IMG/VR virus record: IMGVR_UViG_3300025316_000027
Span: 1 to 44,892 of that record
Length of the DNA stretch: 44,892 bases
Direction: 5' to 3' (one strand)
Source of the DNA: a virus
In this document: positions 3,839 through 27,523 of the stretch, piece by piece
Layout: each line of letters opens with the position of its first letter
How positions within the stretch are numbered: the stretch's first letter is position 1
The notes under the pieces: model-generated
The model's input: the letters and a program-made list of their open reading frames with translations, nothing else
Databases searched by the model: none
Told to the model about the DNA's origin: nothing
Made by a program: the position numbers and the translations under genes

Positions 3839-4813
3839 ATGAGCGAGATGGATGATAAAATAATTGAGTTGTATGACGGCGGCCTGACTTATAAAGAAGT
3901 GTCATTAAAGACCGGCGCTAGTAATGCCAGAATATCTAAATTGGTAAAAGGCCATCGATCACAATCAGATGCTGGGAGATTGACGGTCTCCAAGGGCATA
4001 TGCAAAGTCGCAAATATGACATCGGAGCAATGCAGCGCGAACGCAATTAAATCGGCGATATCAAGCAGGAAATTTTGGACAAAACCAGAGCGAATGTTCA
4101 GAATATTACTGAATGAATGCGGCGTCGGCGTCAAGTTTCCGCCCGGCATGCATGAGATAATCAAACAAAGCGATGATGTCAATGCGGATATATTTTACCA
4201 ATACCCAATCCAAAGGTATTTATGCGACTTCGTTGACCTCACGCATAAAACCATATTTAGGATAAATGGTGACTACTGGCACGCCAACCCACTGCTTTAT
4301 CCAAATCAAGATGACCTAACGAAACCACAAAAACACAATAGGATTCAAGATCGAAATGCTAAAATTTACTTCGAGAAGCATGGGTGGATAATAATTGACA
4401 TATGGGAGAGTGAAATCGCATGGGACCAAGACAAAGTGAAACACATAATCCGGGCGGCTAGGGAAGCGGCTAACCCGACTGGCCTACATCCAGTAGATCC
4501 CCGGTTCGAATCCGGGGCCGCCCAATGGCAAGATAGGCTGAAAAAATTGTGGTTCAGGCAACCAAAAACAAAGACAAGAACCAATTTTGGGCACGGCATG
4601 TGTAAATGCGGAAAGCAATTCGAGTTTCAGAACCAGAGGGAAGCAGCAAGGAAAAAGTACTGCAGCGTAGTATGCTCTGCATTCTATAAGCGGAAAACGA
4701 AATGGCCAAGCAATTTGGCCGAGCTGGTTGCGCAGAGCTCAATGAGAGCAATTGGTATCTTATTGGGGGTGACAGACAAGGCCGTCAAGAAACACCTGAA
4801 GACTAAGGCCTAG
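3839..4813 (+). CDS. Vsr-like homing endonuclease with helix-turn-helix ends, 324 aa, containing a tRNA gene
   Basis: The N-terminus is a helix-turn-helix (about residues 7-38). Residues about 115-205 form a Vsr/very-short-patch-like nuclease: CDFVD, a GDYWHANP motif, then an RIQDRNAKIYFEKHGW helix and a WESE ending, as in the Vsr/EDxHD fold used by some phage homing enzymes. The C-terminus has a CKCG...C...C zinc knuckle and a second helix-turn-helix that closely resembles the C-terminus of the HNH enzyme at 14239-14976. Between the nuclease and the C-terminal module the frame passes, sense and in frame, through a complete tRNA gene (4452-4524). The ribosome-binding site is in a strong hairpin. 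Fold assignment is by motif only. Confidence 0.75.
   Translation: MSEMDDKIIELYDGGLTYKEVSLKTGASNARISKLVKGHRSQSDAGRLTVSKGICKVANMTSEQCSANAIKSAISSRKFWTKPERMFRILLNECGVGVKFPPGMHEIIKQSDDVNADIFYQYPIQRYLCDFVDLTHKTIFRINGDYWHANPLLYPNQDDLTKPQKHNRIQDRNAKIYFEKHGWIIIDIWESEIAWDQDKVKHIIRAAREAANPTGLHPVDPRFESGAAQWQDRLKKLWFRQPKTKTRTNFGHGMCKCGKQFEFQNQREAARKKYCSVVCSAFYKRKTKWPSNLAELVAQSSMRAIGILLGVTDKAVKKHLKTKA
4452..4524 (+). tRNA. tRNA-Val-like (anticodon TAC), embedded in the endonuclease frame
   Basis: Acceptor GGGCGGC/GCCGCCC, a 3-bp D stem GGG/CCC with GG in the loop, anticodon stem ACTGG/CCAGT around CCTACAT, T stem CCCGG/CCGGG around TTCGAAT, discriminator A. Position 33 is C instead of the near-universal T. 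The entire gene lies within codons of the 3839-4813 frame on the same strand. Confidence 0.75.
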
Positions 4814-4819
4814 ATCATT

Positions 4820-5263
4820 ATGGAACGAAGACAGATGGCATGGATTAGAAGCGGCAACCCCGTCCAGATGTTCACCGAGATGGTCAGCATCGTACGCGAA
4901 GGAATCATAGATGGTGAGGTAACTAATGCCTCCATCGTCAAGGTCCTAACCCCCATCGACCCCAACGACCCACGCCAACGCCACAATCAGAAAGCCGTCC
5001 TCCTCACCGACGAGACCAGCGATCGCCCCGGAAACCAGATCTGGTTATACCTGGAGGTGCAGTTCAAAGATGGAGGCACTTTTGGATGCCTCACTAAGGA
5101 TGGAGAGCGCTACTCAATGAACGCCGAGACCTCCATGATCGGTGGTGTCGGTGGTGAGGGCGAAGGCTGGACTTTACATAGTCCTACTGATCCCATGCAG
5201 TTCAGCCACCGGGTTGTTCAGCAGATTAAAGAATTCATTGGGAAGTTTTTGGAGAAGCAGTGA
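4820..5263 (+). CDS. Hypothetical protein, 147 aa
   Basis: Unrecognised soluble protein. The middle looks like beta-strands (residues about 50-100) and the end is an amphipathic helix. There are no cysteine motifs and no membrane segments. It starts 6 bases after the endonuclease stop, which suggests the endonuclease was inserted directly in front of it. The final codons overlap a GTG start of the next frame (GTGA). Confidence 0.55.
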   Translation: MERRQMAWIRSGNPVQMFTEMVSIVREGIIDGEVTNASIVKVLTPIDPNDPRQRHNQKAVLLTDETSDRPGNQIWLYLEVQFKDGGTFGCLTKDGERYSMNAETSMIGGVGGEGEGWTLHSPTDPMQFSHRVVQQIKEFIGKFLEKQ

Positions 5264-5661
5264 AGCTGGACGATCTGAAATGCGAAGTGTGCGGAAAGAA
5301 GGGAGTAGCCACTTGGTCAGCCACAGAGGGAGCCCGCTGTCAGGAACACAGCGGGTACGTGGAGAAACACAAAAATACCCCGGCAGGTGAGGCCACGAGT
5401 GCCAACTCGTGCACCGCCGGGGACCACCTGGGCGAGGACCATTTAGCAGGTCGCCGGGTTTGGGACCCGGAGATTCGTGTGGGTGCGAACCCCACCGCCC
5501 AGATTTACCGGCACGATTGTGGTAGCAGTTCAAAGCGGTGCATAGTACTTGGAATCCCAATGAAGAAGGGACTATTTCACCATATAACCCAGGGTGTAGC
5601 TCAGAGGCAGAGCGCTCGGTCCGGAACCGAGAGGCCGGGATCTCAAAATTCCCCACCCTGA
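5260..5661 (+). CDS. Small zinc-binding protein whose frame runs on through two tRNA genes
   Basis: The first 40 residues (CEVCGKKG...CQEH) look like a genuine zinc ribbon and the GTG start is coupled to the upstream gene. The frame then has no stop through a hairpin, a complete tRNA-Pro and a second tRNA, finally ending on a TGA formed by the last bases of that tRNA. The C-terminal two thirds is therefore tRNA sequence read as protein. Either the original stop was lost when tRNAs arrived or the product is a meaningless extension. Only the N-terminal part is convincing. Confidence 0.4.
   Translation: MKLDDLKCEVCGKKGVATWSATEGARCQEHSGYVEKHKNTPAGEATSANSCTAGDHLGEDHLAGRRVWDPEIRVGANPTAQIYRHDCGSSSKRCIVLGIPMKKGLFHHITQGVAQRQSARSGTERPGSQNSPP
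5378..5422 (+). other. Strong composite hairpin just upstream of tRNA-Pro
   Basis: CCCCGGC (5378-5384) pairs with GCCGGGG (5416-5422). Inside, GGTG can pair with CACC, and CACGAG/CTCGTG forms an apical 6-bp hairpin with a 6-nt loop. No T-tract follows, so it is not a classical terminator. It may be a leader or processing element for the tRNA-Pro transcript, or a small structured RNA. Confidence 0.45.
5428..5503 (+). tRNA. tRNA-Pro (anticodon TGG)
   Basis: Acceptor CTGGGCG/CGCCCAG (7 of 7), D stem GACC/GGTC, anticodon stem CCGGG/CCCGG around TTTGGGA, T stem GTGGG/CCCAC around TGCGAAC. The D loop lacks an obvious GG. It lies inside the open frame of the preceding zinc-ribbon gene. Confidence 0.8.
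5590..5661 (+). tRNA. Degenerate tRNA, anticodon loop TCCGGAA (CGG by numbering; possibly a decayed Arg CCG)
   Basis: Acceptor CAGGGTG/CACCCTG and D arm GCTC/GAGC are perfect, and the anticodon stem is CTCGG/CCGAG. The loop has C at position 33, and the T arm is damaged: the T53-T61 pair is mismatched and the loop reads CTCAAAA instead of TTCRANN. The loop would be a normal Arg(CCG) loop if one T were restored. It may be non-functional. Confidence 0.5.
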
Positions 5662-5683
5662 ATATACTTAATCTGACCGGTAT

Positions 5684-5983
5684 TCACTTCACTTTTGCGA
5701 CTTCCGAGGTGCCATCCTCCATGGCTTTGTCGTGCTCTTTGTCTGCCTCCCCCAAGAGCGCCTCGAATTCCCCCACATGTACTTTCTCTTCCTTGGCCAC
5801 GTCCAAGAAGACCTTTTTGATCTTCTCGTTCTTGGTGCTGGCCGCCATTTGTTCATAGAGGCTAGCGGCATCCAGCTCGGCGATAATAGCTTGGCGTAGG
5901 AGAATGGCATCGCTAGACTTGGCTTCGTCGGCGACGCCTAGTAACGCCATGGTTTCGGATATTAATTTAGGATCTGGGTACAT
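5684..5983 (-). CDS. Ferritin-like (rubrerythrin-type) small protein, 99 aa
   Basis: Residues 24-78 form a two-helix half-ferritin: AELDAASLYEQMA (E36, E44) followed by a second helix with KEEKVHVGEFEALL (E65, E66, H69, E72). The E...ExxH pattern is the di-iron ligand set of ferritin-like and encapsulated-ferritin-like proteins. At 99 residues it would have to dimerise to complete the four-helix bundle. Small ferritin-like proteins occur in structural regions of some large phages, and this one opens the - strand structural cluster. Iron binding is inferred, not shown. A GAGG lies upstream of the ATG. Confidence 0.65.
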   Translation of the reverse strand: MYPDPKLISETMALLGVADEAKSSDAILLRQAIIAELDAASLYEQMAASTKNEKIKKVFLDVAKEEKVHVGEFEALLGEADKEHDKAMEDGTSEVAKVK

Positions 5984-6024
5984 ATGGCACCTCTATTAAA
6001 GGTTTGCCTGGTGCCATGCGGGAC

Positions 6025-6453
6025 TTAGGCCAGCGGTACTGGATCGTTAAACAAGGCCAGGTAGGCCGGATTGTCAACCTGGGCTGCGGAGCCATCCGGC
6101 TTAGCTACTGCCACCTTGGCAGGAACAACCGATAGCAACAGCTGTTTAGTGCCAGTAAGATACGCCTTTAAGCCATCATAGGCTAGCTTCTTAGCATCTT
6201 CAATGCCGCCCTGGAGTACACCAGAGCCGTTATCAACACCATCGCGAAGTTGAGCCAGAGTGGGGGCATTGCCAGTAGTCAGAAGTGTTGGGCCAAAGAC
6301 TACTTCACGCAGTCTAGTATAAATAGCCATCAGCTGCTGTGTTGCCCCAACTGAAAGAGTTTCTAGATTGATGTCGGCAAACTGTACAACCTGGAGCACA
6401 GTCTTGCCTGTCATGTCTACGCCGCAAAGAGTGGTTACTGGTCTGGTCGCCAT
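6025..6453 (-). CDS. Hypothetical phage protein, 142 aa
   Basis: Unrecognised; helical, Ala/Leu/Val-rich, no membrane segment. It has a good TAGGAG ribosome-binding site and an AT-rich TCAAAAATAC element about 20 bases before it. It sits between the ferritin-like gene and the fibre-associated genes on the same strand, so a virion or tail-fibre accessory role is plausible but not demonstrated. Confidence 0.55.
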   Translation of the reverse strand: MATRPVTTLCGVDMTGKTVLQVVQFADINLETLSVGATQQLMAIYTRLREVVFGPTLLTTGNAPTLAQLRDGVDNGSGVLQGGIEDAKKLAYDGLKAYLTGTKQLLLSVVPAKVAVAKPDGSAAQVDNPAYLALFNDPVPLA

Positions 6454-6481
6454 TGAATAGCTCCTAAAAGAGTATTTTTGA

Positions 6482-6973: not shown

Positions 6974-6998
6974 GCTTTATATTTCCCGTCACCATTCC

Positions 6999-10341: not shown

Positions 10342-11253
10342 CTAGCGGCCAAACCGGCTGAAAGTTCTAACACGGTGACAGTTGGCACACACTAAGTCGC
10401 ATTTTATTATTTCGGCAGTCAACTCGCCAATGGTATACCTACGGCACGCCACATTAGATATATTAAATGACTTGGTCAGACTGTCACGGTGGTCAAATTC
10501 CATCGCTGTGGGGTGAAATTGGAGGCCACAGTCCTGGCATGGCTGCTTCTTGCGGTTCTGAACAAATGCTCGCTTATACAATCCAGACTCAGATGGAACA
10601 TCACCAATTAGCCGGTACTTATGCCCTAGCCTATGACAAACAGCACACAGTAGGCGGCATTTCTTGGACTCAAGCAGCGTGGCTTCCCAAGAGTTGCCAG
10701 CCAACATGTGACTCATACTTTTAAATTTATCAGACAAGTGATGAAAATCATACGCGGCGTTGTGGAACTGCCCACCGCATTCGCTGCACTTTCCACCCAT
10801 TATCTTAACTAATTTATCTTTCCTCAATCTGGCTCTCAGCCTTTTATTGCTAACTGAGACATTGTGGCATTTTGAACAATAATATAGTCCCGGTTGTGGC
10901 TCACCACCGCACCCCACGCACTGGCCCTCTATTTTACGACGACCGCGAACCCCCTCACGCTGCTGATTGGCGTGACAATTTGGACATATTCTGCAATAGG
11001 TAAATCCTCTTTCACACAAGTTATTAATATACTTACGGACTTTGCGCTTAGTGCCGCATTGCGGACAGTCACCAGCATCAGATTTGGAGTCAAGTCTGCG
11101 GAAGTAACTTGGATTGAAAACTGGGATATTGTGGCGTTTACAGAACTGACCTAAACCAACATCTGAAACACCTATTTCCTCCGCTATGGCGTTGAGTGGC
11201 CTCCGAGTAACTTCGGAGGCCACCCAAGCTATACTCTTTATGATTTTAGGCAT
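10342..11253 (-). CDS. Homing endonuclease with two tandem HNH domains, 303 aa
   Basis: The N-terminal helix-turn-helix is followed by zinc knuckles (CPQCG, CRICPNCH, CVGCG, CSKCH). A first HNH domain follows (CSECGG...YDFHHL...CRLLCAVCHR) and then a second (CQDCGL...MEFDHR...CDLVCANCHR). Single HNH domains are the rule in phage homing enzymes; two in one chain is unusual and suggests fusion or an internal dimer. A TCAAATATAG motif lies 3 bases before the ATG. It is inserted between the fibre gene and the next HNH gene. Confidence 0.8.
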   Translation of the reverse strand: MPKIIKSIAWVASEVTRRPLNAIAEEIGVSDVGLGQFCKRHNIPVFNPSYFRRLDSKSDAGDCPQCGTKRKVRKYINNLCERGFTYCRICPNCHANQQREGVRGRRKIEGQCVGCGGEPQPGLYYCSKCHNVSVSNKRLRARLRKDKLVKIMGGKCSECGGQFHNAAYDFHHLSDKFKSMSHMLAGNSWEATLLESKKCRLLCAVCHRLGHKYRLIGDVPSESGLYKRAFVQNRKKQPCQDCGLQFHPTAMEFDHRDSLTKSFNISNVACRRYTIGELTAEIIKCDLVCANCHRVRTFSRFGR

Positions 11254-11289: not shown

Positions 11290-11913
11290 TTACTCTTGGA
11301 GAGTCGTAAGCCAGTAAGCCACATCCACAAAATGTGCCCAAGAGGCGCGCTGCACTCTGGGGATGGGGAACTGGTAAGGCGGAGCCTTCGGCTCCCGCAC
11401 CAACCGCATCCCGGCTTCCCGAGGCGTCCGAGCGGACTTGCGCGTATTGCAAGCTACACATGCACAAACCAGGTTGTGCCACTCCAGCTTGCCGCCCCGG
11501 CTCTTGGGGATAACGTGGTCCAAAGTCAAATCCGAAGACTTAAACTTCTTGCCGCAGTACTGGCACCGGAAGCCATCCCGCGCAAAGAGGTTGTGCCGGT
11601 TGAGCTTAACCTTCCGACGCCGATACTCCCCATAGTGGGTCAGCCGCAGAATGGAGGGGACTGCGATGTGCCGGTTGACGGTCCGGAGCCAGATGTGCTG
11701 CTCCCGCTCGAACTCAGCCTTGAACTCACTCAGCTCCTTCCAGGACTCGAAATCGTAGGTGAAGTACTTGCGATTAGGCTCTTCGCCTTCGATATCTAGG
11801 GCCTCGGCCCGACCCTGCATGAGCAGGTTGACAGCCTTCCGCGCCGTGACGAAATCTTGCGCCACATAGTTGCGGTTCAGGATCAGAACAGGCTCTGATA
11901 ATACGGCAGTCAT
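11290..11913 (-). CDS. HNH endonuclease family protein, 207 aa
   Basis: The N-terminal VLILNRNY...VTARKAVNLLMQGRAEAL block is typical of a widespread bacterial and phage HNH family. The nuclease core is FRCQYCGKKF...LTLDHVIPKSRGG...NLVCACVACNTRK, with the CxxC...H...CxxC ribs and DH catalytic pair intact. I chose the ATG at 11913 because AAGGAGG stands just before it; the frame is open further into the tRNA. It lies 15 bases after tRNA-Leu(GAG) and could be a free-standing nuclease rather than a homing enzyme. Confidence 0.8.
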   Translation of the reverse strand: MTAVLSEPVLILNRNYVAQDFVTARKAVNLLMQGRAEALDIEGEEPNRKYFTYDFESWKELSEFKAEFEREQHIWLRTVNRHIAVPSILRLTHYGEYRRRKVKLNRHNLFARDGFRCQYCGKKFKSSDLTLDHVIPKSRGGKLEWHNLVCACVACNTRKSARTPREAGMRLVREPKAPPYQFPIPRVQRASWAHFVDVAYWLTTLQE

Positions 11914-12125: not shown

Positions 12126-12365
12126 ATGAAGATCGCCGTATTGTACGAGAATATGACGCCGCCAGAACTTCAAAACCACTTACAGCAGCAAGTCGAAGAA
12201 GCTCTCGGAGAGGTCAACCGTTGGTACTGCTCCCAGGCTATGGGATACAACGTCTCAGACCCAGAAATCCTCCTTAAATACTATATTAAGAATGGTGGAG
12301 CGGAGGGGTACCGCAAGCGCCACGAAGAATACCACCAAATGTCCGCCCCCTCACCCACTGTCTAA
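12126..12365 (+). CDS. Hypothetical protein, 79 aa
   Basis: An isolated + strand gene amid - strand genes. The protein (MKIAVLYENMTPPEL...) is predicted helical and ends in a basic, Tyr-rich segment. No family is recognised and the ribosome-binding site is weak. Its stop codon directly abuts the 3' end of a tRNA fragment on the other strand. Confidence 0.5.
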   Translation: MKIAVLYENMTPPELQNHLQQQVEEALGEVNRWYCSQAMGYNVSDPEILLKYYIKNGGAEGYRKRHEEYHQMSAPSPTV

Positions 12366-12406
12366 TGCACCCGGCGAGACTCGAACTCGCACAACCCAGC
12401 TTCGAA
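12366..12406 (-). other. tRNA 3' half of a split tRNA-Arg (probable anticodon TCG)
   Basis: On the - strand it reads TTCGAA, anticodon 3' stem GCTGG, variable GTTGT, T arm GCGAG/CTCGC around TTCGAGT, acceptor CGGGTGC, then A. No 5' half precedes it; instead the complete tRNA-Arg(CCG) and an HNH gene do. Its acceptor strand is exactly complementary to GCACCCG of the fragment at 13118-13145. Confidence 0.65.
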
Positions 12407-12480
12407 TGTCCCTGGTGGGATTCGAACCCACAAAATACCACCTTCGGAAAGTGGTGCCCATCCAATTGAGCATCAGGGAC
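12407..12480 (-). tRNA. tRNA-Arg (anticodon CCG)
   Basis: Acceptor GTCCCTG/CAGGGAC, D stem GCTC/GGGC, anticodon stem CCACT/GGTGG around TTCCGAA, T stem GTGGG/CCCAC around TTCGAAT. The first eight bases contain the TGA stop of the upstream HNH gene. It is located between the two halves of another, broken tRNA. Confidence 0.85.
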
Positions 12481-13054
12481 GCATAGGGAGAGTGTAATCT
12501 CGCGGAAGTTTTAATTTATCAAGAACCACAAGCCAATCGCCGCAATTACATATTGTATCAATAGCCTTATTTAATTGGCAATTATGATCTATAACTATCT
12601 TATCGTCAATTAGGCCACGGTGATATTCACCATGACAATTGTGGCAATAAGCGACACATTTCCTAAGTTCCGCAATAATCTTCTTGAATTGGTGCCCAAA
12701 CGCTTTATTTCCCAACTCAAACGACTTATCTTTAAGATGATGGAACACAATGTTGGTTATGGTTTTATCATAGCCACACTTTTGGCATCTATACCCAATT
12801 AAACAAAGGATTGCTCGCCGATTCCTACTTCGGATTAAATTAGCTGGGTCAGCGCCATGCGCCTCTACAAATTTATCGCGCCAATTGCGGGTATTATTAC
12901 GTTTCCTAGCCCTAAAATTCTCGACAGAGCAAGTGGGGCGGGGCGACTTGAATGGCTGACAATCAAGGCACCGAACTCGACTACCCAAATTATGGAGCTT
13001 GCCATCTATTGTCATCCAATTCGGAAACGTAGCGCCACATTTGCATGTTTTCAT
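12473..13054 (-). CDS. HNH homing endonuclease, 193 aa
   Basis: The N-terminal zinc knuckle (CKCG...CLDC) is followed by an HNH core: GYRCQKCGYDK, IVFHHLKDK, then CVAYCHNCHGEYHRG with all zinc and catalytic histidines present. The C-terminus is short and its TGA stop is formed inside the 5' acceptor strand of tRNA-Arg(CCG). A TCAAATATAG motif lies 3 bases before the ATG. The gene sits within a split tRNA, as expected if the enzyme cleaves a tRNA anticodon region. Confidence 0.85.
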   Translation of the reverse strand: MKTCKCGATFPNWMTIDGKLHNLGSRVRCLDCQPFKSPRPTCSVENFRARKRNNTRNWRDKFVEAHGADPANLIRSRNRRAILCLIGYRCQKCGYDKTITNIVFHHLKDKSFELGNKAFGHQFKKIIAELRKCVAYCHNCHGEYHRGLIDDKIVIDHNCQLNKAIDTICNCGDWLVVLDKLKLPRDYTLPMRP

Positions 13055-13073
13055 ATACTATATTTGACACTAA

Positions 13074-13101
13074 GTACTCTATCCAATTGGGCTACACTAA
13101 G
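13074..13101 (-). other. Orphan tRNA 5' half (fragment B)
   Basis: On the - strand: CTTAGTG, TA, GCCC, AATTGGATA, GAGT, AC, a tRNA acceptor and D arm. No partner with CACTAAG was found in the window. It lies between the 5' half of the split tRNA-Arg and the HNH gene, and its first eight bases recur just after it (CTTAGTGT). Confidence 0.5.
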
Positions 13102-13117
13102 ATAGAACCAGAAAAGT

Positions 13118-13145
13118 GTGCCCTATCCAATTGGACTACGGGTGC
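13118..13145 (-). other. tRNA 5' half of the split tRNA-Arg (fragment A)
   Basis: On the - strand: acceptor GCACCCG, TA, D stem GTCC/GGGC around AATTGGATA, AC, then the tRNA pattern stops in the anticodon stem. The acceptor pairs 7 of 7 with CGGGTGC of the 3' half at 12366-12406, about 710 bases downstream. Its TAG at tRNA positions 8-10 is the stop codon of the preceding RMF-like gene. Confidence 0.65.
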
Positions 13146-13423
13146 TTAATTTCCCAACGCCTGGGCGTATCCGCTTTCCCCTCATCCCACCCTAAAAACC
13201 ATTGCTCACGCCGTTCCCCCTGGTGTGGGTTGGCCTCACGCTTCAACCCATTACCAAATGCGTAGTACCCTTGCACATAATAATCAAGACCATACCCAGC
13301 ACGGGCGCGATTACATTTAGATGAAGATTTGTAAACGCGCTTAGTCGTTCCGCATCGTTTACATATCCTTCCCTCCTCGTAAAGGTGGTTGCTAAATCCA
13401 TTGATACAGGGCTTTGATTTCAT
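13136..13423 (-). CDS. Zinc-knuckle protein with a ribosome-modulation-factor-like domain, 95 aa
   Basis: The N-terminal CxN...CKRCG finger (residues 5-27) is followed by YYVQGYYAFGNGLKREANPH...EQWFLGWDEG (about residues 49-83), the Gx-AF-xG-xNP...W-xGW signature of ribosome modulation factor (RMF), which in E. coli dimerises 70S ribosomes in stationary phase. RMF-like domains are found in various phages. The ATG at 13423 overlaps the end of the tRNA-Arg transcript by spacing only 2 bases, and the stop TAG is supplied by a tRNA fragment. Ribosome binding is inferred from the motif. Confidence 0.65.
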   Translation of the reverse strand: MKSKPCINGFSNHLYEEGRICKRCGTTKRVYKSSSKCNRARAGYGLDYYVQGYYAFGNGLKREANPHQGERREQWFLGWDEGKADTPRRWEIKHP

Positions 13424-13876: not shown

Positions 13877-14258
13877 CAGCTTCCTTTAGTTCTTTTCGGG
13901 TGCTCTTGAATACTTTTACATACGACCGATTAGTCACCAGCATTCCGTGCTCCCATAGGCCCTCATAGACCCCATTGCCATCGTAGAAAAACTCTCTAGT
14001 TCCTGTTCTACTAAATGCCCAGGTGGCAGGTTTAACCCGGACATGGAACACTGGCTTACTGCCTGGCGATTCCACAGCATCAGAAACATACCACTTATTC
14101 GGCCATTTGTCTGATGTATCTGGCAATGCGCCGATCCCCGCAAAGCACTCACGATCAAGCTCTGTGGTTATTGCATCAGTCATTAAATCAAAAATGGTCG
14201 GCGGACGCATAGGCCGCAGTCCCACAATCCCTAGAACCTCATACGTGTAACGTCCCAT
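13836..14258 (-). CDS. Hypothetical protein, 140 aa
   Basis: Unrecognised soluble protein rich in Trp, Tyr, Phe and charged residues. The start overlaps the last 20 bases of the HNH endonuclease gene, which means the endonuclease was placed flush against this gene. It is one of several small, unrelated-looking accessory proteins in this tRNA region. Confidence 0.55.
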   Translation of the reverse strand: MGRYTYEVLGIVGLRPMRPPTIFDLMTDAITTELDRECFAGIGALPDTSDKWPNKWYVSDAVESPGSKPVFHVRVKPATWAFSRTGTREFFYDGNGVYEGLWEHGMLVTNRSYVKVFKSTRKELKEAVDAWTREQNLSLE

Positions 14259-14976
14259 AATGGTTCTTTATCCTTTTTGCGACAGCTTTGTCTGAAACAC
14301 CCAATGATATTGCGACAGCCCGATACGATGAATTCTTTATTAGCTCTGGGAGATTATCTGGCCAAGTAATTTTCTCCCGTTTAATAAGGGCACACTCGCG
14401 GCATGTATTCCCACGCCTCATTAGCTTGCCACACCTGCACCTCTTGGCGTGCAATCGTTTGTTAACAAGCACTGGTGATATGCCCATCTTATCGGCGACT
14501 ACTTCTATTGTCTCGTTCGCAACCAAGCCAGCGAGGTCATCAGGCCACTTTATTTTATTGGCATACTGGCATTGACATTTCCATGAACAGAATTTATTGC
14601 CCTTGGTTGGCCTCCCGCACTCGTGGCAATATGTGAATTTATGGCTAGTTGGGATTGGTCTCTGAGGCCCAATGGCTGCCATCGCCACCTTGCGATTATC
14701 AACATTAACTTCTGGACATGCCCTAATACCAGCGTGAATCTCACCATGACAATTATGACAGACCATCACGCATTTATCCGCCTCCTCAATAATATCATTC
14801 CACGATGAGCACTTATTAATCAACCTAGCCATGGCTGCCTTTTTATCTCGCAAATGGTGCCATGCAAAGTTGCCGTGATATTTATCATATCCACATGACT
14901 GACATTTACCCCCACTGTACTTGACGAGCCACTGTTTTGCCTTAACTCGCCATCGTTGTGTGCTAACATAACTCAT
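14239..14976 (-). CDS. HNH homing endonuclease with two zinc/helix-turn-helix tails, 245 aa
   Basis: The HNH core is at residues about 20-85: GKCQSCGYDKYHG, FAWHHLRDK, CVMVCHNCHGEIHAG. Two DNA-binding units follow, each a zinc knuckle plus a helix-turn-helix (KIKWPDDLAGLV... and KITWPDNLPELI...). The second is nearly the same module as the C-terminus of the Vsr-like enzyme at 3839-4813, a clear case of module exchange between nuclease folds. I chose ATG 14976 with GAGGG upstream. tRNA-Thr lies 37 bases upstream. Confidence 0.8.
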   Translation of the reverse strand: MSYVSTQRWRVKAKQWLVKYSGGKCQSCGYDKYHGNFAWHHLRDKKAAMARLINKCSSWNDIIEEADKCVMVCHNCHGEIHAGIRACPEVNVDNRKVAMAAIGPQRPIPTSHKFTYCHECGRPTKGNKFCSWKCQCQYANKIKWPDDLAGLVANETIEVVADKMGISPVLVNKRLHAKRCRCGKLMRRGNTCRECALIKREKITWPDNLPELIKNSSYRAVAISLGVSDKAVAKRIKNHYGTLHV

Positions 14977-15084: not shown

Positions 15085-15114
15085 AGTCCGGCTCTGCCAT
15101 TGAGCTACGGCGGC
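15085..15114 (-). repeat. Duplicated 5' half of tRNA-Thr
   Basis: On the - strand the 24 bases from GCCGCCG through the D arm repeat those of the adjacent tRNA-Thr with one mismatch (AATGGCAG versus AATAGCAG), followed by CGGACT. There is no 3' half, so it is a partial tandem duplication at the 5' side of the tRNA. Confidence 0.7.
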
Positions 15115-15115
15115 A

Positions 15116-16798: not shown

Positions 16799-17353
16799 AT
16801 GTGTATGCAAGACCAGCGAATTATCGAATTATTCAAAATGGGGCTTGGCGCTCGCAAAATAGCGAGAACATTGGGCTACAAGCACCACGCCACTGTGTCC
16901 AGGCAGTTAATGAGACTAGGCCTGTCACGCAACTCTTCGGTTGTCCCAAATGGCGAGAAGTCATTAATACTATTCGGAGGCAATGGTAAATTGGATCGTG
17001 CTGCCGAATCGTATTTAAAATTTCGCTGCGACCTCGCTGGATTCGAGTGGGCGCAAGTTCACGCTAGCCTACCATATGACCTCTTAGTGGATTTTGGATC
17101 TGGCTGGAGGAGAGTACAGATAAAATCGTCCGGCTTGGCCAACCCCAGCGGCAATTTCATATTCAATGTGTTCCATCGTCAGTGGGGTAATGGCACCAGA
17201 GAAAAAGTGCAATATAGCTTGGACGACGTCGATTATTTCTTTCTGTTCGATCAGAATAAGAACTCGTGGCTAATACCATCATCGCTACTGGTGCAGCAGA
17301 TTACCATAACACCAGAATTGCGGTTTCCCGGTTTCAAATTAGATAGAGTCTAA
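16799..17353 (+). CDS. PD-(D/E)XK homing endonuclease, 184 aa
   Basis: N-terminal helix-turn-helix (about residues 5-40: RIIELFKMGLGARKIARTLGY). The nuclease core starts with GKLDRAAESYLKFR and has the catalytic set in YDLLVDFGSG...RRVQIKSSG, D followed by QxK, as in the PDDEXK_5 group that includes I-Ssp6803I, an enzyme known to target a tRNA gene. The C-terminus ends with WLIPSSLL. I chose ATG 16799; ATG 16805 is also possible and ATG 16769 overlaps the tRNA. A variant of the endonuclease promoter motif (TCAAATCTAA) lies directly upstream. Confidence 0.75.
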   Translation: MCMQDQRIIELFKMGLGARKIARTLGYKHHATVSRQLMRLGLSRNSSVVPNGEKSLILFGGNGKLDRAAESYLKFRCDLAGFEWAQVHASLPYDLLVDFGSGWRRVQIKSSGLANPSGNFIFNVFHRQWGNGTREKVQYSLDDVDYFFLFDQNKNSWLIPSSLLVQQITITPELRFPGFKLDRV

Positions 17354-19197: not shown

Positions 19198-19839
19198 ATG
19201 AACAAAGAACAGGCTATAACCTTGCGGGAATCAGGCTTGAGCATACGCGAAATAGCTGCAATGGGCATATCTAAATCAACAGCCAGTGTTTGGTGCAGAG
19301 GGATTAAAGGTAGCGACAAACGAGCAAGGACCAATATTAAATTGAATGCAGCGCGAGGCAGTCTGGCTTGCGCCCAAAAGTGGTCCAAGTTACACTCTGA
19401 AGCAATAGCAGAGGCCATATCCGAATGGGCACTTCTTAAACAAGATCCAAATTTTATGGAATTTATTGGCATATATTGGGGAGAAGGAGACAAAAGATGT
19501 AGCCAAGTGGGTATATCCAACACTGACCCGGCACTTATACGAAAATGTATGCACATCTTTGAAAGATTCACATCACCAAAATATGATTGCACAATCATGA
19601 TCTATCCAGACGAGAATGGGGCATCTATATCTAAATACTGGTCGGAACAACTACATCTGTCATGCCCAATCAGGATCATAAGGAAAGAATCATCTGGCAA
19701 GCGGAAATATACTAACCATGGAACTGCGCACCTACGATTTAGTGACTGGAGGCTCAAACAAAAATTAATGGCGTGGATCGAGTGTACACGCCAAAGCTCG
19801 GTAGAGGATTTGCACCTCTGTGTGGCGAAGCCATCCTGA
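19198..19839 (+). CDS. LAGLIDADG-type homing endonuclease with N-terminal helix-turn-helix, 213 aa
   Basis: An N-terminal helix-turn-helix (about residues 3-30, LRESGLSIREIAAMGISKSTASVW) precedes FMEFIGIYWGEGDKRC (about residues 96-105), a single LAGLIDADG-like helix with the acidic catalytic residue. The C-terminal domain carries the KYWSEQL and HLRFSDWRLKQKLMAWI elements also seen in the relic at 2043-2336. One LAGLIDADG motif implies a homodimer. The last 15 codons are read from the antisense strand of tRNA-Cys, which also supplies the stop. AGAGG precedes the ATG. Confidence 0.7.
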   Translation: MNKEQAITLRESGLSIREIAAMGISKSTASVWCRGIKGSDKRARTNIKLNAARGSLACAQKWSKLHSEAIAEAISEWALLKQDPNFMEFIGIYWGEGDKRCSQVGISNTDPALIRKCMHIFERFTSPKYDCTIMIYPDENGASISKYWSEQLHLSCPIRIIRKESSGKRKYTNHGTAHLRFSDWRLKQKLMAWIECTRQSSVEDLHLCVAKPS

Positions 19840-22119: not shown

Positions 22120-22878
22120 CTATTGATTACATCCACCACATGCTGAATCATCGCAGGATGCGTATTCCCATTTAAAATTATACGCTGACTTTGTCCCTCC
22201 CGCCAAGCATAGCCATATGCTACCTATTGGAACCATTGTCTTTCTGCTCGCGCTTGAAATACTATCGAATGACGATATGAACGTCTTATCCAAAGAATAC
22301 TGATTAACTTTCCTTTGTGGATATCTACCCTCATTCTTTTCTTCTTTTAATTCCGGGATATTCCTCCCATCATTTGAAAATCTCCATTGATATCCACCAT
22401 AACTCTTGAAACGCAAGTTACAGCAGGCAGATATGTTGCAAGGGCTAAGGGACACACTCCGAGCGGCTTCTTGCAACCCGTAATAAGAACAGATAAATAT
22501 GCCGTCTAAACTATACTTTGAAACATATTTAACTTTGTGCATTTGAGCTTTTCTCATCTTTTCTTTGGACTCTTTGGTGTGACTGACCCTAGATGGGCAC
22601 AGCGTTTCGTTGTAGAGTTCTCTTTTATGGCAAGAATTAAGATATTTTTCTTCAACAGTTAATAGATTCTTTTCATCGCACAACTCAAGGCCAATAAATT
22701 CGAAAGCGATCTCTCCATATTTATTCCACGCCCTTTGAAGATGTTCATTTTCGTGTCGGTTTTTCCTTAGGTCGCATTTGTGTTTGCGAAATCGTATAGC
22801 CCAAGAATTTGAACTCCCAAAGTATCTCTTTTGAGAGACTCTATTATATATGCAATATACACCACAGTCGAATTTCAT
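22120..22878 (-). CDS. GIY-YIG homing endonuclease with NUMOD-type repeats, 252 aa
   Basis: Residues about 5-95 form the GIY-YIG domain: GVYCIYN, then KRYFGSS (YFG in place of YIG), an Arg in RFRKH, and a Glu/Asn-rich end (NEHLQRAWNKYG). After a helical stretch with SHTKESKEKMRKA (NUMOD3-like) come two NUMOD1-like repeats, VSKYSLDGIFI... and VNQYSLDKTFI..., which bind DNA along the minor groove. The ATG at 22878 overlaps the hydrolase stop (ATGA), so translation is coupled to it. tRNA-Tyr lies directly downstream. Confidence 0.85.
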   Translation of the reverse strand: MKFDCGVYCIYNRVSQKRYFGSSNSWAIRFRKHKCDLRKNRHENEHLQRAWNKYGEIAFEFIGLELCDEKNLLTVEEKYLNSCHKRELYNETLCPSRVSHTKESKEKMRKAQMHKVKYVSKYSLDGIFICSYYGLQEAARSVSLSPCNISACCNLRFKSYGGYQWRFSNDGRNIPELKEEKNEGRYPQRKVNQYSLDKTFISSFDSISSASRKTMVPIGSIWLCLAGGTKSAYNFKWEYASCDDSACGGCNQ

Positions 22879-23516
22879 AGTGAATTTATCATATTTATGG
22901 TCTTTTGGATCATTTCCTGGTCGTGGGCAACCGAGTTGTGCCCACCCTCCAGAGTCTGCATCATCGCCCCTGGAATCCTTGCCGTCCGAGGACCCCACCC
23001 GCTTGACCTCACATAAAAATCATACTTGATCATATTGGTCGGCATCACTAGGTCGCCCCAGCACGGATCATCATTTACCGCGTCGATGGCCACCACATAA
23101 TCTACCTGGGCTATGTCGCTACATGCCTTGATGACCGTCGCGCCACCAAAAGAGTGGCCAATCAACACTATTTTCATGCCAGGATGCTCAGCCACCATCG
23201 CTGAGACATCTACCTTATAGCCGTTCCAGCTACCAGCGTCATGGATTTCGGCCTTGGCGGAGCAATTGGCCTGGAGGGCCAGGAGCATATTTTGTGCTTG
23301 ACTGTCACCATCATCTAGTTGGCTATTTCCTAGGCCTCCGACTACTAGGACTAGGATGGTTTTTGGTGTCTCTTCTGGCGGGATGGCTGGCTCTTCTGGC
23401 GGGATGGCTGGTTCTCTGGGGGGCATGGCGATGGGGGGCACAACCTCACCATCTTCGGGAGTGTAGTCGAATTCGCAGGTTATTTTGACGTTGGTGATTT
23501 TTAGGTTGGTGATCAT
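22875..23516 (-). CDS. Alpha/beta hydrolase (lipase/esterase-like), 213 aa
   Basis: After an N-terminal beta-strand pair and a proline-rich linker with tandem PPEEPAI units (residues about 35-50), the hydrolase fold starts at ILVLVVGGLGNS. The nucleophile elbow is GHSFGG (Ser122), a likely acid is Asp145 (VVAIDA), and the His is in GGHNSVAHD (His193 or His198). No signal peptide. The substrate is unknown; esterase or lipase action on host envelope or a capsid-linked role are possible. GGAGG precedes ATG 23516 and a TAAATATAAG motif lies 11 bases further upstream. Confidence 0.7.
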   Translation of the reverse strand: MITNLKITNVKITCEFDYTPEDGEVVPPIAMPPREPAIPPEEPAIPPEETPKTILVLVVGGLGNSQLDDGDSQAQNMLLALQANCSAKAEIHDAGSWNGYKVDVSAMVAEHPGMKIVLIGHSFGGATVIKACSDIAQVDYVVAIDAVNDDPCWGDLVMPTNMIKYDFYVRSSGWGPRTARIPGAMMQTLEGGHNSVAHDQEMIQKTINMINSL

Positions 23517-23527
23517 ATTGGCCTCCA

Positions 23528-23537
23528 CTTATATTTA
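23528..23537 (-). promoter_or_regulatory. Candidate phage promoter, TAAATATAAG
   Basis: Exact copy of the 10-mer also found at 12031-12040 and 43192-43201. It lies between tRNA-Val(CAC) and the hydrolase gene, directly before its ribosome-binding site. Confidence 0.5.
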
Positions 23538-23554: not shown

Positions 23555-23627
23555 TGACCTCGGCAAGATTCGAACTTGCGACTTCTTCGGTGTGATCGAA
23601 GCACTCTAACCGCTGAGTTACGAGGCC
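23555..23627 (-). tRNA. tRNA-Val (anticodon CAC)
   Basis: Acceptor GGCCTCG/CGAGGTC, D stem ACTC/GAGT, anticodon stem CTTCG/CGAAG around ATCACAC, T stem GCAAG/CTTGC around TTCGAAT. Its bases 8-10 (TAA) are the stop codon of the upstream LAGLIDADG gene. Confidence 0.9.
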
Positions 23628-24343
23628 GGAATCAGCCTTCTATACTTTAATGAATTTTTGAGCTTATCTTTATCGGCTGCATCCCAAATTGCCTTCTTAC
23701 GATCCAAGAACATGGTGGCATCTTTGTACAACCAACTACATATCATTGCGGTATCGAATTGGCCATACCGCAATTTTTGGCTGACAGCGTTTGGGTTATG
23801 TTTGAATTTTTTATATATACCTAAATGCTTATTTATTGTGGCAGCAACCTCATCAAGCAAATTGCCAGTTGCGTTTCCGGCTGAAAAAGACAGTCGTAGA
23901 TTACTAACGCGCTTACCGTGCCGTGTTTTATAATTAACCCAGTGGATAGAGCCATCACCGTCAAAAAACCCACGTATAAAATGGTGAGTAAGATGTGATG
24001 GTATATCGAATGGCAGCTTAAGACGCGTCTCACTTTTCCGTGTGGTTTGAGCATATTTAAAGCAAAAGTCAAACAATTTGGCCGAGTAGATCAGGATTTG
24101 CCAGCAAGCTTTGCACCTAACCGTCGCCGCGTGGCTCAAACACACCTCTTTCCCCAGAAACTTGGAGAAATAGCAAAGGAATTCGCGGTCTACACTTGCC
24201 AGACCCCATGTCTTATCGATTCTTGATTTATTCTTCTTAAAACAAATCCAGCCATCAGCATACCAAAAGCCTAAGATATATGCCGAGTTTTCATTCCAAG
24301 TATCAAACAGATCGTGGTTTATGCGGTTCGAGTCCGTTTTCAT
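23618..24343 (-). CDS. LAGLIDADG homing endonuclease with two motifs, 241 aa
   Basis: Two LAGLIDADG helices are clear: YILGFWYADG (residues 22-31) and FIRGFFDGDG (residues 122-131), each ending in the catalytic acidic residue, so a monomeric pseudo-dimer enzyme is expected. I chose ATG 24343, 12 bases after a TCAAAAATAC element. The last codons and the TAA stop are formed by the 5' end of tRNA-Val(CAC). It lies between tRNA-His and tRNA-Val. Confidence 0.85.
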   Translation of the reverse strand: MKTDSNRINHDLFDTWNENSAYILGFWYADGWICFKKNKSRIDKTWGLASVDREFLCYFSKFLGKEVCLSHAATVRCKACWQILIYSAKLFDFCFKYAQTTRKSETRLKLPFDIPSHLTHHFIRGFFDGDGSIHWVNYKTRHGKRVSNLRLSFSAGNATGNLLDEVAATINKHLGIYKKFKHNPNAVSQKLRYGQFDTAMICSWLYKDATMFLDRKKAIWDAADKDKLKNSLKYRRLIPAS

Positions 24344-24377
24344 ATGGTATTTTTGACCGAACCTCACGCGCTTGAAG

Positions 24378-24451
24378 GGTGAATGACGGGATTCGAACCC
24401 GCGACCCTCTGGACCACAACCAGATGCTCTACCAACTGAGCTACATCCACC
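24378..24451 (-). tRNA. tRNA-His (anticodon GTG)
   Basis: Acceptor GTGGATG/CATTCAC with an extra G(-1) opposite C73, the hallmark of tRNA-His. D stem GCTC/GAGC, anticodon stem TCTGG/CCAGA around TTGTGGT, T stem GCGGG/CCCGT around TTCGAAT. Confidence 0.9.
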
Positions 24452-24546
24452 GTACGCCCCGTGATTGAACGCCCCGCTATTGACGGAGTTAAGTAGGAGT
24501 TATTGACTTGTCAAAGAACGGCCTCGAGATCGGAGATTCATCCCGC

Positions 24547-25137
24547 CTAAGCGGGGTTATTCTCGTCATATCCGTCATTGGCCACGTAATATTGATCCAA
24601 CCCTTCCATTGATATAAGGCTAACGTTAGCAATCACATGGAATGGAATCATCCAACAATCACCATTCTTATGGCAAAAAAACCAGTAATCGAAACTTCCC
24701 TTTTTAAACGCCTCTTTGGTAGATATCTTGGTGTTAAAGTGCGATCTACGTAGACCAAACTCTGGCCAATTTCTGTTGCTTAGACTAGTTGAGCCTCTAA
24801 CCTGAATCGTGATTATCTTGCCTTGCTTCAATGCAAACAAGTCAAACACGCACTTTGGATCAGACTCTCCAACCTGCCAGCCTCTAGCTGTCAAAAACTC
24901 CTTGCACTTATTAACTGCCACAACCCTCAGGAATTCATCGTCTACTTCACCGAATTCCTTAAGGCCATCGGCAGCCGCCTCTTGCTCTTCTTGAGAGTGC
25001 CTAATACAATACTTGACAGTGGAAATCGAGCACCCAAGTATCTCGGCAATCTCCTCATTCGTTGATCCTCTTAATTTAAGCCGCAAAATTACGCTCTTGA
25101 AGTAATACCTACCACGCAGCCTATCATACCTATCCAT
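24547..25137 (-). CDS. PD-(D/E)XK homing endonuclease, 196 aa
   Basis: A helix-turn-helix (about residues 24-47, GSTNEEIAEILGCSISTVKYC) precedes a nuclease of the same group as the 16799-17353 protein: KCVFDLFALKQGKIITIQVRG supplies the D and QxR/K residues, and FDYWFFCHKNGDCWMIP matches VDYFFLFDQNKNSWLIP there. Arg in place of the usual catalytic Lys is noteworthy and may weaken activity. A hairpin (CCCCGC/GCGGG) follows the stop. A TCAAATATAG motif 37 bases before the ATG directly abuts the tRNA-Ser 3' end. Confidence 0.7.
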   Translation of the reverse strand: MDRYDRLRGRYYFKSVILRLKLRGSTNEEIAEILGCSISTVKYCIRHSQEEQEAAADGLKEFGEVDDEFLRVVAVNKCKEFLTARGWQVGESDPKCVFDLFALKQGKIITIQVRGSTSLSNRNWPEFGLRRSHFNTKISTKEAFKKGSFDYWFFCHKNGDCWMIPFHVIANVSLISMEGLDQYYVANDGYDENNPA

Positions 25138-25173
25138 AGTCTACTCCATCAGTAAAACAACCAATGCAATAAA

Positions 25174-25183
25174 CTATATTTGA
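25174..25183 (-). promoter_or_regulatory. Candidate endonuclease promoter, TCAAATATAG
   Basis: Exact copy of the 10-mer found before other endonuclease genes. It starts at the base next to the tRNA-Ser discriminator and would drive the PD-(D/E)XK gene alone. Confidence 0.5.
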
Positions 25184-25269
25184 TGGAAGAGGTGGGATTC
25201 GAACCCACGAGGCTTTTTACACCTACCGAGGTTCAGGCTCGGCTCCTTAAGCCACTCGGACACTCTTCC
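25184..25269 (-). tRNA. tRNA-Ser (anticodon TGA)
   Basis: Acceptor GGAAGAG/CTCTTCC, Ser-like D arm (TCCGAGTGGCTTAAGGA), anticodon stem CCGAG/CTCGG around CCTGAAC, long variable arm, T stem GTGGG/CCCAC around TTCGAAT. Position 33 is C. Confidence 0.85.
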
Positions 25270-25319
25270 GCATCTCTCCTTATTTCCCTTTAGTTCACAT
25301 ATACTTTTAAGCGAACGAA

Positions 25320-25565
25320 AGTTACCCCTGGTCGGGGTTGCCCTCGCCGCTTAATTCAGGTTCCTTATTGTTTTTCGGAGCTGATTAAGCGGTCTCGGGC
25401 CGCTGCTTCAGGGTGGTATGCCCGCATCCTGAATGGTCTTTACTATTATATCTAATAGTAAAGAGCGAGTTACAACCCGAGAGCGGGCGACGCTGGCGGG
25501 ATTGTATTTTTGTCGTAACTCGCAACATGGTAGCCATTCCTAAACTCCTGGGTAAAGACCCAGCC
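25320..25565 (-). ncRNA. Candidate structured non-coding RNA: chain of at least seven hairpins
   Basis: The 369 bases from 25270 to 25638 have no credible gene. Within them are stems at 25324-25338 (ACCCC/GGGGT), 25349-25390 (GCTTAAT/ATTAAGC plus inner pairs), 25389-25403 (GCGG/CCGC), 25407-25433 (TTCAGG/CCTGAA), 25437-25464 (a perfect 12-bp stem with a 4-nt loop), 25465-25523 (GCGAGTTAC/GTAACTCGC enclosing CCCG/CGGG) and 25548-25563 (CTGGGT/ACCCAG). The strand is uncertain; neighbours run on the - strand and tRNA-Ser lies directly downstream. Large phage RNAs such as GOLLD and ROOL also sit near tRNAs, but I cannot show kinship. I saw no tmRNA T-arm or RNase P core. Confidence 0.55.
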
Positions 25566-25638
25566 TCTGTCGGTTAAATACGCGACACTATTATGTTTGC
25601 CGAGACAACGTGCGGCGCGCTGGCCGCCCAAGAAAATC

Positions 25639-26439
25639 TTATGGACCCGATCCCGGTCCCTTCATTTTCACGTACAACGCGGCTTTCCGGCGTGCAGCGT
25701 CCCGCTGCTGAGGAGTAAATGAGATCCCAGATTTGACCAGCGCATCAGCCTGCTTCCTGACCACCTCAACCCCATCCGCGCCCAACGTGTTAGCCAACAC
25801 GCCTAAGAACTCAGCCTGCTCCTTTGGATCCAAAGCCAACGCAACCTCAGCCGCGTCCCTGGCCGCTCCCTCCTCGTCTGGCGAAGCCTTCTTAGAGGCC
25901 GCCAAATTCTTAGCATACTCCTGCAACTGATCGATAGCCTGCGATAACAAGTCCGATTCCTTCTGAATTGCTGCTACCTTAGTGGCCGCATCGCCATCGT
26001 CCGCTTCCTTCATCAGCTGCACGTGAGCATCATAGAAGGCCAAATACATCTTCTTGGCGGCGGCGTCATTCCCCGAGCCCTCTATCTGAACCATTAACTC
26101 TTGCAGATTCTTGTACTTGACCCCATTTTCATCAGACAGGGTCTTCACCTTGTCGTACAATGCCTTATGCTGCCCCAAATTCCGCAGCGTCTCATCGCGA
26201 ATCCGCTGGCTATTGGCGCTAAGACCACGCATGCCTTCGCTGGGCTTAGTCTCCCCCACACTAACCGTAGTCTTCATCACCCCATTGTAAATGATCGAAG
26301 CAAGAACCATCAGGATACGCCCAACTGGGTTCGCAGCCACCGCGTCTAAAATCTTCCCCACCTTGCCGCCCATCCCAGGCTGGCCTGGCTGGCTGGGCTG
26401 CTCATCCGCCTCCATGAGATATAGATTATATAGCTTCAT
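25639..26439 (-). CDS. Hypothetical protein, probable virion or head-region component, 266 aa
   Basis: Begins MKLYNLYLMEADEQPSQPGQPG, a start style (short hydrophobic peptide, then EAD) seen in head and scaffold-region proteins of T4-like phages. A hydrophobic stretch (about residues 38-56) is followed by long Ala/Lys/Glu-rich coiled-coil helices, ending in a basic tail. I cannot assign a role. GAGGTGATC precedes the ATG. The inserted TnsA-like gene upstream overlaps its first 14 bases. Confidence 0.55.
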   Translation of the reverse strand: MKLYNLYLMEADEQPSQPGQPGMGGKVGKILDAVAANPVGRILMVLASIIYNGVMKTTVSVGETKPSEGMRGLSANSQRIRDETLRNLGQHKALYDKVKTLSDENGVKYKNLQELMVQIEGSGNDAAAKKMYLAFYDAHVQLMKEADDGDAATKVAAIQKESDLLSQAIDQLQEYAKNLAASKKASPDEEGAARDAAEVALALDPKEQAEFLGVLANTLGADGVEVVRKQADALVKSGISFTPQQRDAARRKAALYVKMKGPGSGP

Positions 26440-27523
26440 CGATCACCTCTATATTATGTTTGGGCCTAAATAGCCGCTTCTCTGTGACTACTACAAAATC
26501 GAGATCATTATCTAGACAATGCCTTCTAGCAGCTATAAATTTTGCCGGATTCCGTTCCATAGAAATCAAACGAGATGGTTTAACCTCAACTAACTCAGCG
26601 TGGTCTTCATAGATCACCAAGAAATCGGGGGTGTACGACTTAATTATCCCATCGTGCTCATATTCAATTTGAAAAGGCTCATACTCAAACTTAACGACTT
26701 GTGGATCACTCTCAAGAATATTCACGTACTTAGTCTCATAACTCGACCTCGTACGAAAATTTCCACCCTTTAATGTAATCATGTCTTGCCCAACACCACG
26801 GCCTGGCCTAATCTTCCCCTCTTTAAATAACTTCACCGCCCTCTCGCTTAGCTCCTTGCGATATGCCATATACTCATTGGCAGACATGGCTCTAATCCTA
26901 GCCGATGACCGAGCAGCCATTTTTGGCGCGGCTTTTTCCATGTGCTTGGATATTATACTACTAAGGACGGATGGGTCACGATGCAGTCCAAGCTCATTCA
27001 TTCTCCTCCACAATGCAGCGTGGCTAACACCAAGAGAATTCGCAATCTCTCTTTGACCCATATCGTCTTTGTGTTTTAGAATAAACTCATCCGACTCTTT
27101 AGTAAAGTCATACTGTTTTATTGAATTGGCGATCTTATTTCTTTTTTGCTCTGAGCATATTCTCAGTGGCACCACGCCCAGCAACCTAGCTCTCTTAGCA
27201 ACTTGTTTTGCTGACGCGGCTACTTGATACTTCTTACAAAATTCAGCGACCGAATGATTCGGTAGACCAGACTTAATAAAATCATCATATTTAGCCCAAT
27301 CAATGCGCCAGACTAGGCGGCTCCTTACAGCCCTGGAAATAGCTAGCTTTTGCTCTGGTGAGATAACCTTGTGAGCTGACTTAATGCCAAGCTTTCTAGC
27401 TCTCATGCCAATAGTTCTAGGGATTGTAAATGGTGTAAACTGACCACAAAAGTTTACACAACTCATACTTGGTAGATGCTGTCTAATGAGTGGATCAACG
27501 ACAGCCCAATCAATCGCTTTCAT
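26426..27523 (-). CDS. PD-(D/E)XK (TnsA-like) nuclease with N-terminal helix-turn-helix repeats, probable homing endonuclease, 365 aa
   Basis: The first about 180 residues contain several DNA-binding units of the type QREIANSLGVSHAALWRRMNELGL. The C-terminal about 120 residues are a TnsA-like nuclease: SSYETKYVNIL (Glu), YTPDFLVIY (Asp) and ELVEVKPS (ExK), then a helix (KFIAARRHCLDNDLDF). This fold is shared with TnsA and several phage nucleases. The N-terminal repeats and its insertion, overlapping the next gene, fit a homing enzyme. A TAAATATAA element and GGAGG precede the ATG. Confidence 0.7.
   Translation of the reverse strand: MKAIDWAVVDPLIRQHLPSMSCVNFCGQFTPFTIPRTIGMRARKLGIKSAHKVISPEQKLAISRAVRSRLVWRIDWAKYDDFIKSGLPNHSVAEFCKKYQVAASAKQVAKRARLLGVVPLRICSEQKRNKIANSIKQYDFTKESDEFILKHKDDMGQREIANSLGVSHAALWRRMNELGLHRDPSVLSSIISKHMEKAAPKMAARSSARIRAMSANEYMAYRKELSERAVKLFKEGKIRPGRGVGQDMITLKGGNFRTRSSYETKYVNILESDPQVVKFEYEPFQIEYEHDGIIKSYTPDFLVIYEDHAELVEVKPSRLISMERNPAKFIAARRHCLDNDLDFVVVTEKRLFRPKHNIEVIDEAI

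Follow-up and report, generated by a model that had tools for sequence, protein, structure and literature searches.

Homing-type nuclease genes of several folds in the tRNA cluster of a large uncultured phage

How does the tRNA cluster of a phage come to hold about ten nuclease genes of several folds, and do any of them owe their position to the tRNAs? The question is raised by a 44.9-kb viral contig (44,892 nt; IMGVR_UViG_3300025316_000027) from a large uncultured phage, referred to below as the window. ARAGORN finds 20 tRNAs in the window, and Rfam adds one more at 5590-5661 that ARAGORN missed, a tRNA-Pro(CGG) by its anticodon. A first-pass annotation had called eleven intact homing-type nucleases here. 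All eleven open reading frames (ORFs), named below by their first coordinate (Table 1), were found and each is uninterrupted, and ten of them have nuclease support (four HNH, two PD-(D/E)XK, and one each of GIY-YIG, LAGLIDADG, Vsr/EDxHD and TnsA-like) but 19198 has none. The evidence points, with a probability of roughly two in three, to a tRNA cluster that has been repeatedly invaded by free-standing homing endonuclease genes, among which one HNH family would be adapted to tRNA genes and the other folds would be apparent opportunists. Phage tRNA clusters are now viewed as a counter-defence against tRNA-cutting immunity, and the endonuclease SegB is a precedent for their reshaping by homing endonucleases.

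An HNH family at tRNA genes

The strongest evidence for the invasion of tRNA genes comes from HNH 12473, which interrupts a tRNA-Arg(UCG) in the anticodon arm. Along the minus strand, the 5' half of this tRNA is followed by the HNH gene, a complete tRNA-Arg(CCG) and, abutting it, the 3' half, and the HNH gene is flanked by almost no non-coding space. The acceptor strands of the two halves pair at 7/7 positions, and many ways of joining them are called tRNA-Arg(UCG) by ARAGORN. The 5' anticodon-stem strand, read as CACTT, is unable to pair with the 3' strand GCTGG; the tRNA is taken as broken and not intron-bearing because this 5' strand of the anticodon stem has been lost. No group I intron model of Rfam was found at the gathering cut-off in the window, nor at E = 1 in 12340-13200. 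In the nearest relative found, G001 (IMGVR_UViG_3300005512_000001, 341 kb), an intact tRNA-Arg(UCG) lies at the matching place, between tRNA-Arg(ACG) and tRNA-Leu with the resident HNH gene.

Both halves of a tRNA surround the HNH gene in 3 of 88 loci of the family, namely the window, L101 and L152. The order in L101 is 5' half, HNH gene, 3' half and then tRNA-Ile, and that in L152 is 5' half, complete tRNA-Ile, HNH gene and 3' half. Acceptor pairing is 7/7 in all three loci, as against 2-4% of mismatched half-pairs, and the break, as judged from the sequences, falls in the anticodon arm each time. Another arrangement is present upstream of the HNH gene of locus L144 (2500-2620), where the 3' half of a tRNA-Asn stands ahead of a 5' half whose acceptor strand seemingly matches; this is seemingly a broken tRNA in permuted order.

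Relatives of HNH 12473 were surveyed in IMG/VR, giving 80 loci in 52 clusters at 70% identity. With loci chosen by protein motif and not by tRNAs, and with clustering that removes phylogenetic non-independence only partly, tRNAs lie at ≤3 kb in 44 of the 52 clusters. Within 100 nt of the HNH genes there are 5.2 tRNAs per kb, and the density declines with distance to 0.8 per kb between 2 and 3 kb. A tRNA-Asn is an immediate neighbour in 21 of 39 cases versus 5 expected (p < 1e-5). HNH genes amid tRNAs also occur in annotated phages including Aeromonas phage 4_4572, Pseudomonas phage M5.1, Acinetobacter phage Aci05 and Salmonella phage 7t3. The available parts of two papers describe HNH genes as the most widespread protein genes of mycobacterial and mycobacteriophage tRNA arrays (PMC5966550; PMC6409571); insertion inside tRNA genes and a preference for tRNA-Asn as neighbour are not described in those parts.

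The first-pass annotation had proposed that tRNA clusters of this phage are a landing ground shared by unrelated nucleases. The proposal has strong support for the HNH family (10342, 12473 and 14239), and this across unrelated phages, but tRNA association is no family property of the Vsr, LAGLIDADG, GIY-YIG and TnsA types, whose relatives are mostly distant from tRNAs. In a contrast set of Vsr relatives, taken from the same collection with the same flank, tRNAs are seldom nearby. GIY-YIG relatives were matched to crAss-like and other phages, where no tRNA underlies the matched stretch. Vibrio phage Chester has a relative of PD-(D/E)XK 16799 in its tRNA cluster.

Comparison with a relative, spacing and base composition

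G001 shares 67% protein identity with the window at 27569-28648, and a search for closer relatives with the 1088-aa gene found none. It carries 47 tRNAs, most of them in one cluster at a syntenic position with flanking genes that match those of the window, and the far-end tRNA order is the same in both (Trp, Val(UAC), Pro(UGG), Pro(CGG)). No counterpart of the window nucleases was found at a corresponding position in G001 except for 11290, the orthologue of which lies directly after a tRNA-Leu; 11290 is thus read as an ancestral resident rather than a recent insertion. GIY-YIG was searched for in G001 and not found at all, the LAGLIDADG and TnsA matches are located outside the tRNA region, and a scanned sample of ORFs from the tRNA region contained no Pfam nuclease family. 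The HNH matches of G001, two strong and one weak, are all in the tRNA region at non-corresponding sites. The two genes that flank TnsA-like 26426 are 39 bp apart in G001, an empty site. Since no such counterparts were found, most of the nucleases were inserted in the window lineage or lost from G001, and gain in the window lineage would be the simplest reading. The comparison with relatives that had been suggested to map the insertions came out in favour of invasion in that the tRNAs are kept in G001 and the sites of 26426 and 12473 are uninvaded there, but 11290 occupies an ancestral position. Base composition also sets the genes apart, with a mean G+C of 43.6% in the ten non-resident genes versus 51.3% in the other ORFs of the window (p = 1e-4).

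A distance of at most 40 nt to a tRNA had been stated for most of the eleven genes, and 8 of 11 are indeed so placed or overlap a tRNA, the distances of 11290 and 14239 being measured from start codons read off the sequence. Those farther away are 24547, 10342 (Table 1) and 26426 (1156 nt). Closeness was rejected as evidence by itself; distance alone proves little because ordinary genes of this packed region are about equally close, 10 of the 17 non-nuclease ORFs at 12-25 kb of the window lying ≤50 nt from a tRNA. A stop codon at tRNA positions 8-10, as seen for 12473, 23618 and in Pseudomonas phage M5.1, was likewise considered as a signature of the nucleases and rejected, since control ORFs have it equally often; stop codons lie within tRNAs in 14 of 44 non-HNH ORFs, as frequently as among HNH ORFs.

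Proposed mechanism and competing readings

SegB cuts within tRNA genes at the motif RAWTSGAAC and drives the amplification of a tRNA segment (PMC13096335), and its gene lies between tRNA genes in T4 (PMC2988022). The window resembles the T4/T6 SegB system in having free-standing nuclease genes among phage tRNA genes (PMC2988022; PMC13096335). SegB is a single GIY-YIG enzyme with a T-arm-like motif, whereas the window holds about ten genes of several folds, its HNH 12473 interrupts the anticodon arm, and its own GIY-YIG gene, 22120, belongs to the group I intron type of endonuclease. Spread of the window genes would most likely be SegB-like, an uninvaded allele being cut and then repaired by copying the invaded allele. 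The HNH family would be the part truly adapted to tRNA genes, with a likely cut site in the anticodon arm that would leave a 5' half with its end near position 26-31 and a 3' half that begins near position 32-33. Arginine decoding could be partly kept, because the nuclease of the clearest case is accompanied by an intact tRNA-Arg gene. The remaining folds would be apparent opportunists in a gene-packed, insertion-tolerant region, with 11290 as an old resident.

A more specific and less probable proposal is that the HNH genes form a homing cassette that swaps tRNAs, in which the enzyme would cut the anticodon arm and insert together with a complete tRNA, at the same site in unrelated phages and commonly in tRNA-Asn. 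The broken tRNA would then be partly replaced by the co-inserted one, and repeated invasion would be tolerated. Should the HNH family prove to be adapted to the anticodon arm and to travel with a tRNA, the breaking, replacement and reshuffling of phage tRNA repertoires would have a direct mechanism. On the basis of a limited literature search, interruption of the anticodon arm with an intact tRNA in the insert, the preference for tRNA-Asn and the number of folds per cluster appear to be new.

Several observations weigh against repeated invasion by tRNA-adapted genes. The order of tRNAs is rearranged between the window and G001, because of which individual genes may have been lost from G001, and, with an identity to G001 of only about 67% even for the best shared protein, the exact point of insertion is fixed at just two places, the split tRNA and the TnsA site. 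Loci with both halves around the HNH gene number three only, and for six of the genes no family-level preference for tRNAs was found. Isolated 5' halves near HNH genes are not enriched beyond tRNA density (p = 0.48), and their interpretation as scars of HNH cutting was rejected for this reason. In addition, enzyme activity, cut sites, homing and the function of the intact tRNAs are here inferred.

Some of these points are shared by the view that the cluster is simply a permissive site, a non-essential and gene-packed zone that takes any gene, in which the nucleases target other sequences or arrive by chance and proximity reflects packing. The similar spacing of non-nuclease ORFs, the equal frequency of stop codons within tRNAs in other ORFs, and the relatives of the Vsr, LAGLIDADG, GIY and TnsA types away from tRNAs all fit it, but the strong concentration of the HNH family at tRNAs, notably tRNA-Asn, and the tRNAs that it splits within the anticodon arm, in three contigs, do not, and the view is unlikely. 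It is also improbable, and more so, that the nucleases are domesticated, kept for amplifying or reshuffling tRNA genes against tRNA-cutting host defences and not selfish. SegB acts in this way on tRNA-Tyr in phage T6 (PMC13096335), the window and G001 have very different tRNA orders, and the fragments and tandem 5' halves of the window together with a fragment-rich stretch of G001 could be footprints of amplification and collapse; however, most of the genes are AT-rich with no G001 counterpart found, as expected of recent selfish acquisitions, and the lack of enrichment of isolated 5' halves near HNH genes tells against it too. Finally, acceptor pairing and the ARAGORN joins would suit an intron-containing or trans-assembled tRNA-Arg(UCG), but unpaired anticodon-stem strands, no group I intron model at E = 1 in the interval and a full tRNA-Arg(CCG) between the halves make this very improbable.

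Gene inventory and further features

The locus amounts to a natural collection of homing-type endonucleases, dense and varied in fold (Table 1). The earlier count of at least five folds is borne out by the sure cases, with HNH, GIY-YIG, LAGLIDADG, PD-(D/E)XK and EDxHD in 24 kb in addition to a TnsA-like gene; five of the six named homing-endonuclease families listed in PMC6083498 occur in this 24 kb.

Table 1. Nuclease genes, tRNAs and tRNA fragments of the window (HTH, helix-turn-helix; Zn, zinc)
Feature	Position	Strand	Remark
tRNA 5'-half fragment	3239..3266	+	directly upstream of tRNA-Trp
Vsr-fold (EDxHD/I-Bth0305I-like) nuclease ORF, 324 aa	3839..4813	+	C-terminal Zn/HTH module
tRNA-Val(UAC), in frame inside ORF 3839, codons 205-229	4452..4524	+	syntenic with tRNA-Val(UAC) of G001
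HNH gene, two HNH modules	10342..11253	-	674 nt to nearest tRNA
HNH gene, putative ancestral resident	11290..11913	-	G+C 58%; G001 orthologue 54.6% identical
3' half of split tRNA-Arg(UCG), from anticodon loop	12365..12406	-	acceptor strand CGGGTGC
Complete tRNA-Arg(CCG), between the halves together with HNH	12407..12480	-	
HNH gene inside tRNA-Arg(UCG)	12473..13054	-	stop codon overlaps tRNA-Arg(CCG)
Second tRNA 5'-half fragment	13073..13098	-	19 nt upstream of HNH 12473 start
5' half of split tRNA-Arg(UCG)	13118..13152	-	acceptor strand GCACCCG
HNH gene, two C-terminal Zn/HTH repeats	14239..14976	-	start 36 nt past tRNA-Thr
tRNA 5'-half fragment	15086..15115	-	abuts complete tRNA-Thr(UGU)
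PD-(D/E)XK nuclease (PDDEXK_5)	16799..17353	+	22 nt from tRNA-Leu(CAG)
HTH protein, LAGLIDADG call unconfirmed	19198..19839	+	
GIY-YIG + NUMOD1 endonuclease, group I intron endonuclease type	22120..22878	-	ends 7 nt ahead of tRNA-Tyr
LAGLIDADG endonuclease	23618..24343	-	fills gap from tRNA-His to tRNA-Val; stop codon at tRNA positions 8-10
HTH + PD-(D/E)XK-like nuclease	24547..25137	-	46 nt past tRNA-Ser; sub-threshold
HTH + TnsA-like nuclease	26426..27523	-	not beside a tRNA

HNH 11290 is supported by Pfam, and HNH 10342, 12473 and 14239 by PHROGs, with E values of 1e-38 to 6e-18 for the family assignment and of 1e-38 to 1e-11 for the profile matches to PHROG 2255/3106. The HNH zinc core CxxCG...HH...C..CH is conserved, and its columns are invariant in A1, which includes 12473 and 14239. 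GIY-YIG 22120 passes the cut-offs both of Pfam and of TIGR01453, a model of group I intron endonucleases, as do LAGLIDADG 23618 and PD-(D/E)XK 16799 by Pfam, and PD-(D/E)XK 24547 is sub-threshold (23.3 bits versus a cut-off of 26.1). I-Ssp6803I, a PD-(D/E)XK enzyme encoded in a tRNA intron, targets a tRNA gene. Its broad nuclease fold is that of 16799 and 24547, but these two are free-standing, in a window with no intron by Rfam at gathering thresholds. The TnsA-like gene 26426 scores 59.6 bits, and its nuclease domain matches both TnsA and T4-like head-completion proteins; a long N-terminal part rich in HTH and the empty site in G001 set 26426 apart from the latter and would fit a mobile nuclease, and it is no clear structural gene. 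The LAGLIDADG call on 19198 was not confirmed. Searches of Pfam, PHROG and NCBIfam gave no LAGLIDADG match and just weak HTH matches, a homologue search was empty, and the AlphaFold2 model was too poor for use (predicted local distance difference test, pLDDT, 38). Extra searches for relatives of 24547, 14239, 16799/24547 and 19198 found none, and a DNA similarity search of a phage database with the window gave matches that were merely tRNA-sized or negligible.

Resident HNH 11290 resembles, below the NCBIfam cut-off, the HNH of IscB/Cas9d. Among mycobacterial tRNA arrays, there is one group in which an endonuclease annotated as Cas9 is ubiquitous (PMC5966550).

ORF 3839 has a reading frame that is open across the entire tRNA-Val(UAC). 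Its Pfam match to Vsr is weak, and nuclease support is mainly structural. The core of the AlphaFold2 model (pLDDT about 80-96) matches I-Bth0305I and Vsr and finds its best fold matches in 3r3p and 1cw0, with weak E values (0.008 and 0.04), and reaches a template modelling score of 0.74 by target length against 3r3p, which is I-Bth0305I (EDxHD, Vsr-fold). The catalytic fold is thus predicted, on weak E values, to be Vsr-type and nearest to I-Bth0305I. In relatives of ORF 3839 the protein usually ends soon past the Vsr domain. ORF 3839 differs from I-Bth0305I by a further Zn/HTH module at the C-terminus, past the embedded tRNA. The final helix modelled with confidence (197-211) extends into the tRNA-encoded residues and is followed by low-confidence sequence and then by the HTH. 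What follows the tRNA shows homology, at ≤50% identity and E about 1e-14, to the C-terminal repeats of HNH 14239, and a DNA-binding module is therefore common to two nucleases of different folds. ORF 3839 may encode either one long protein or a read-through fusion. C33 in its tRNA-Val(UAC) was considered as a mark of dual coding and rejected, since Ser-UGA, Val-GAC and Pro-CGG of the window also have C33.

The tRNA 5' halves are real, occurring far above shuffles. In G001, dense tRNA fragments, mostly 5' halves, surround a tRNA-Thr (L008 13000-13600; 313.0-313.6 kb of G001) in a stretch that resembles a tRNA graveyard. The same relative has an aberrant tRNA-Asn-like gene with an apparent tandem duplication of the anticodon arm (L008 17455-17549), with an HNH gene (17598) and an intact tRNA-Asn (18225) nearby. 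Its tRNA region also encodes a TROVE/Ro60-like protein and a polynucleotide kinase-phosphatase-like protein (L008 11189-12499 and L009 6187-7122), suggestive of RNA repair or quality control.

Upstream of tRNA-Ser in the window, a long non-coding stretch at 25274-25636 (minus strand) has a very strong predicted RNA structure (z = -5.9), without an Rfam match or a relative among phage records or fetched loci. A lipase/alpha-beta hydrolase-like gene lies amid the tRNAs at 22875-23528, and its stop codon overlaps the start of the GIY-YIG gene.

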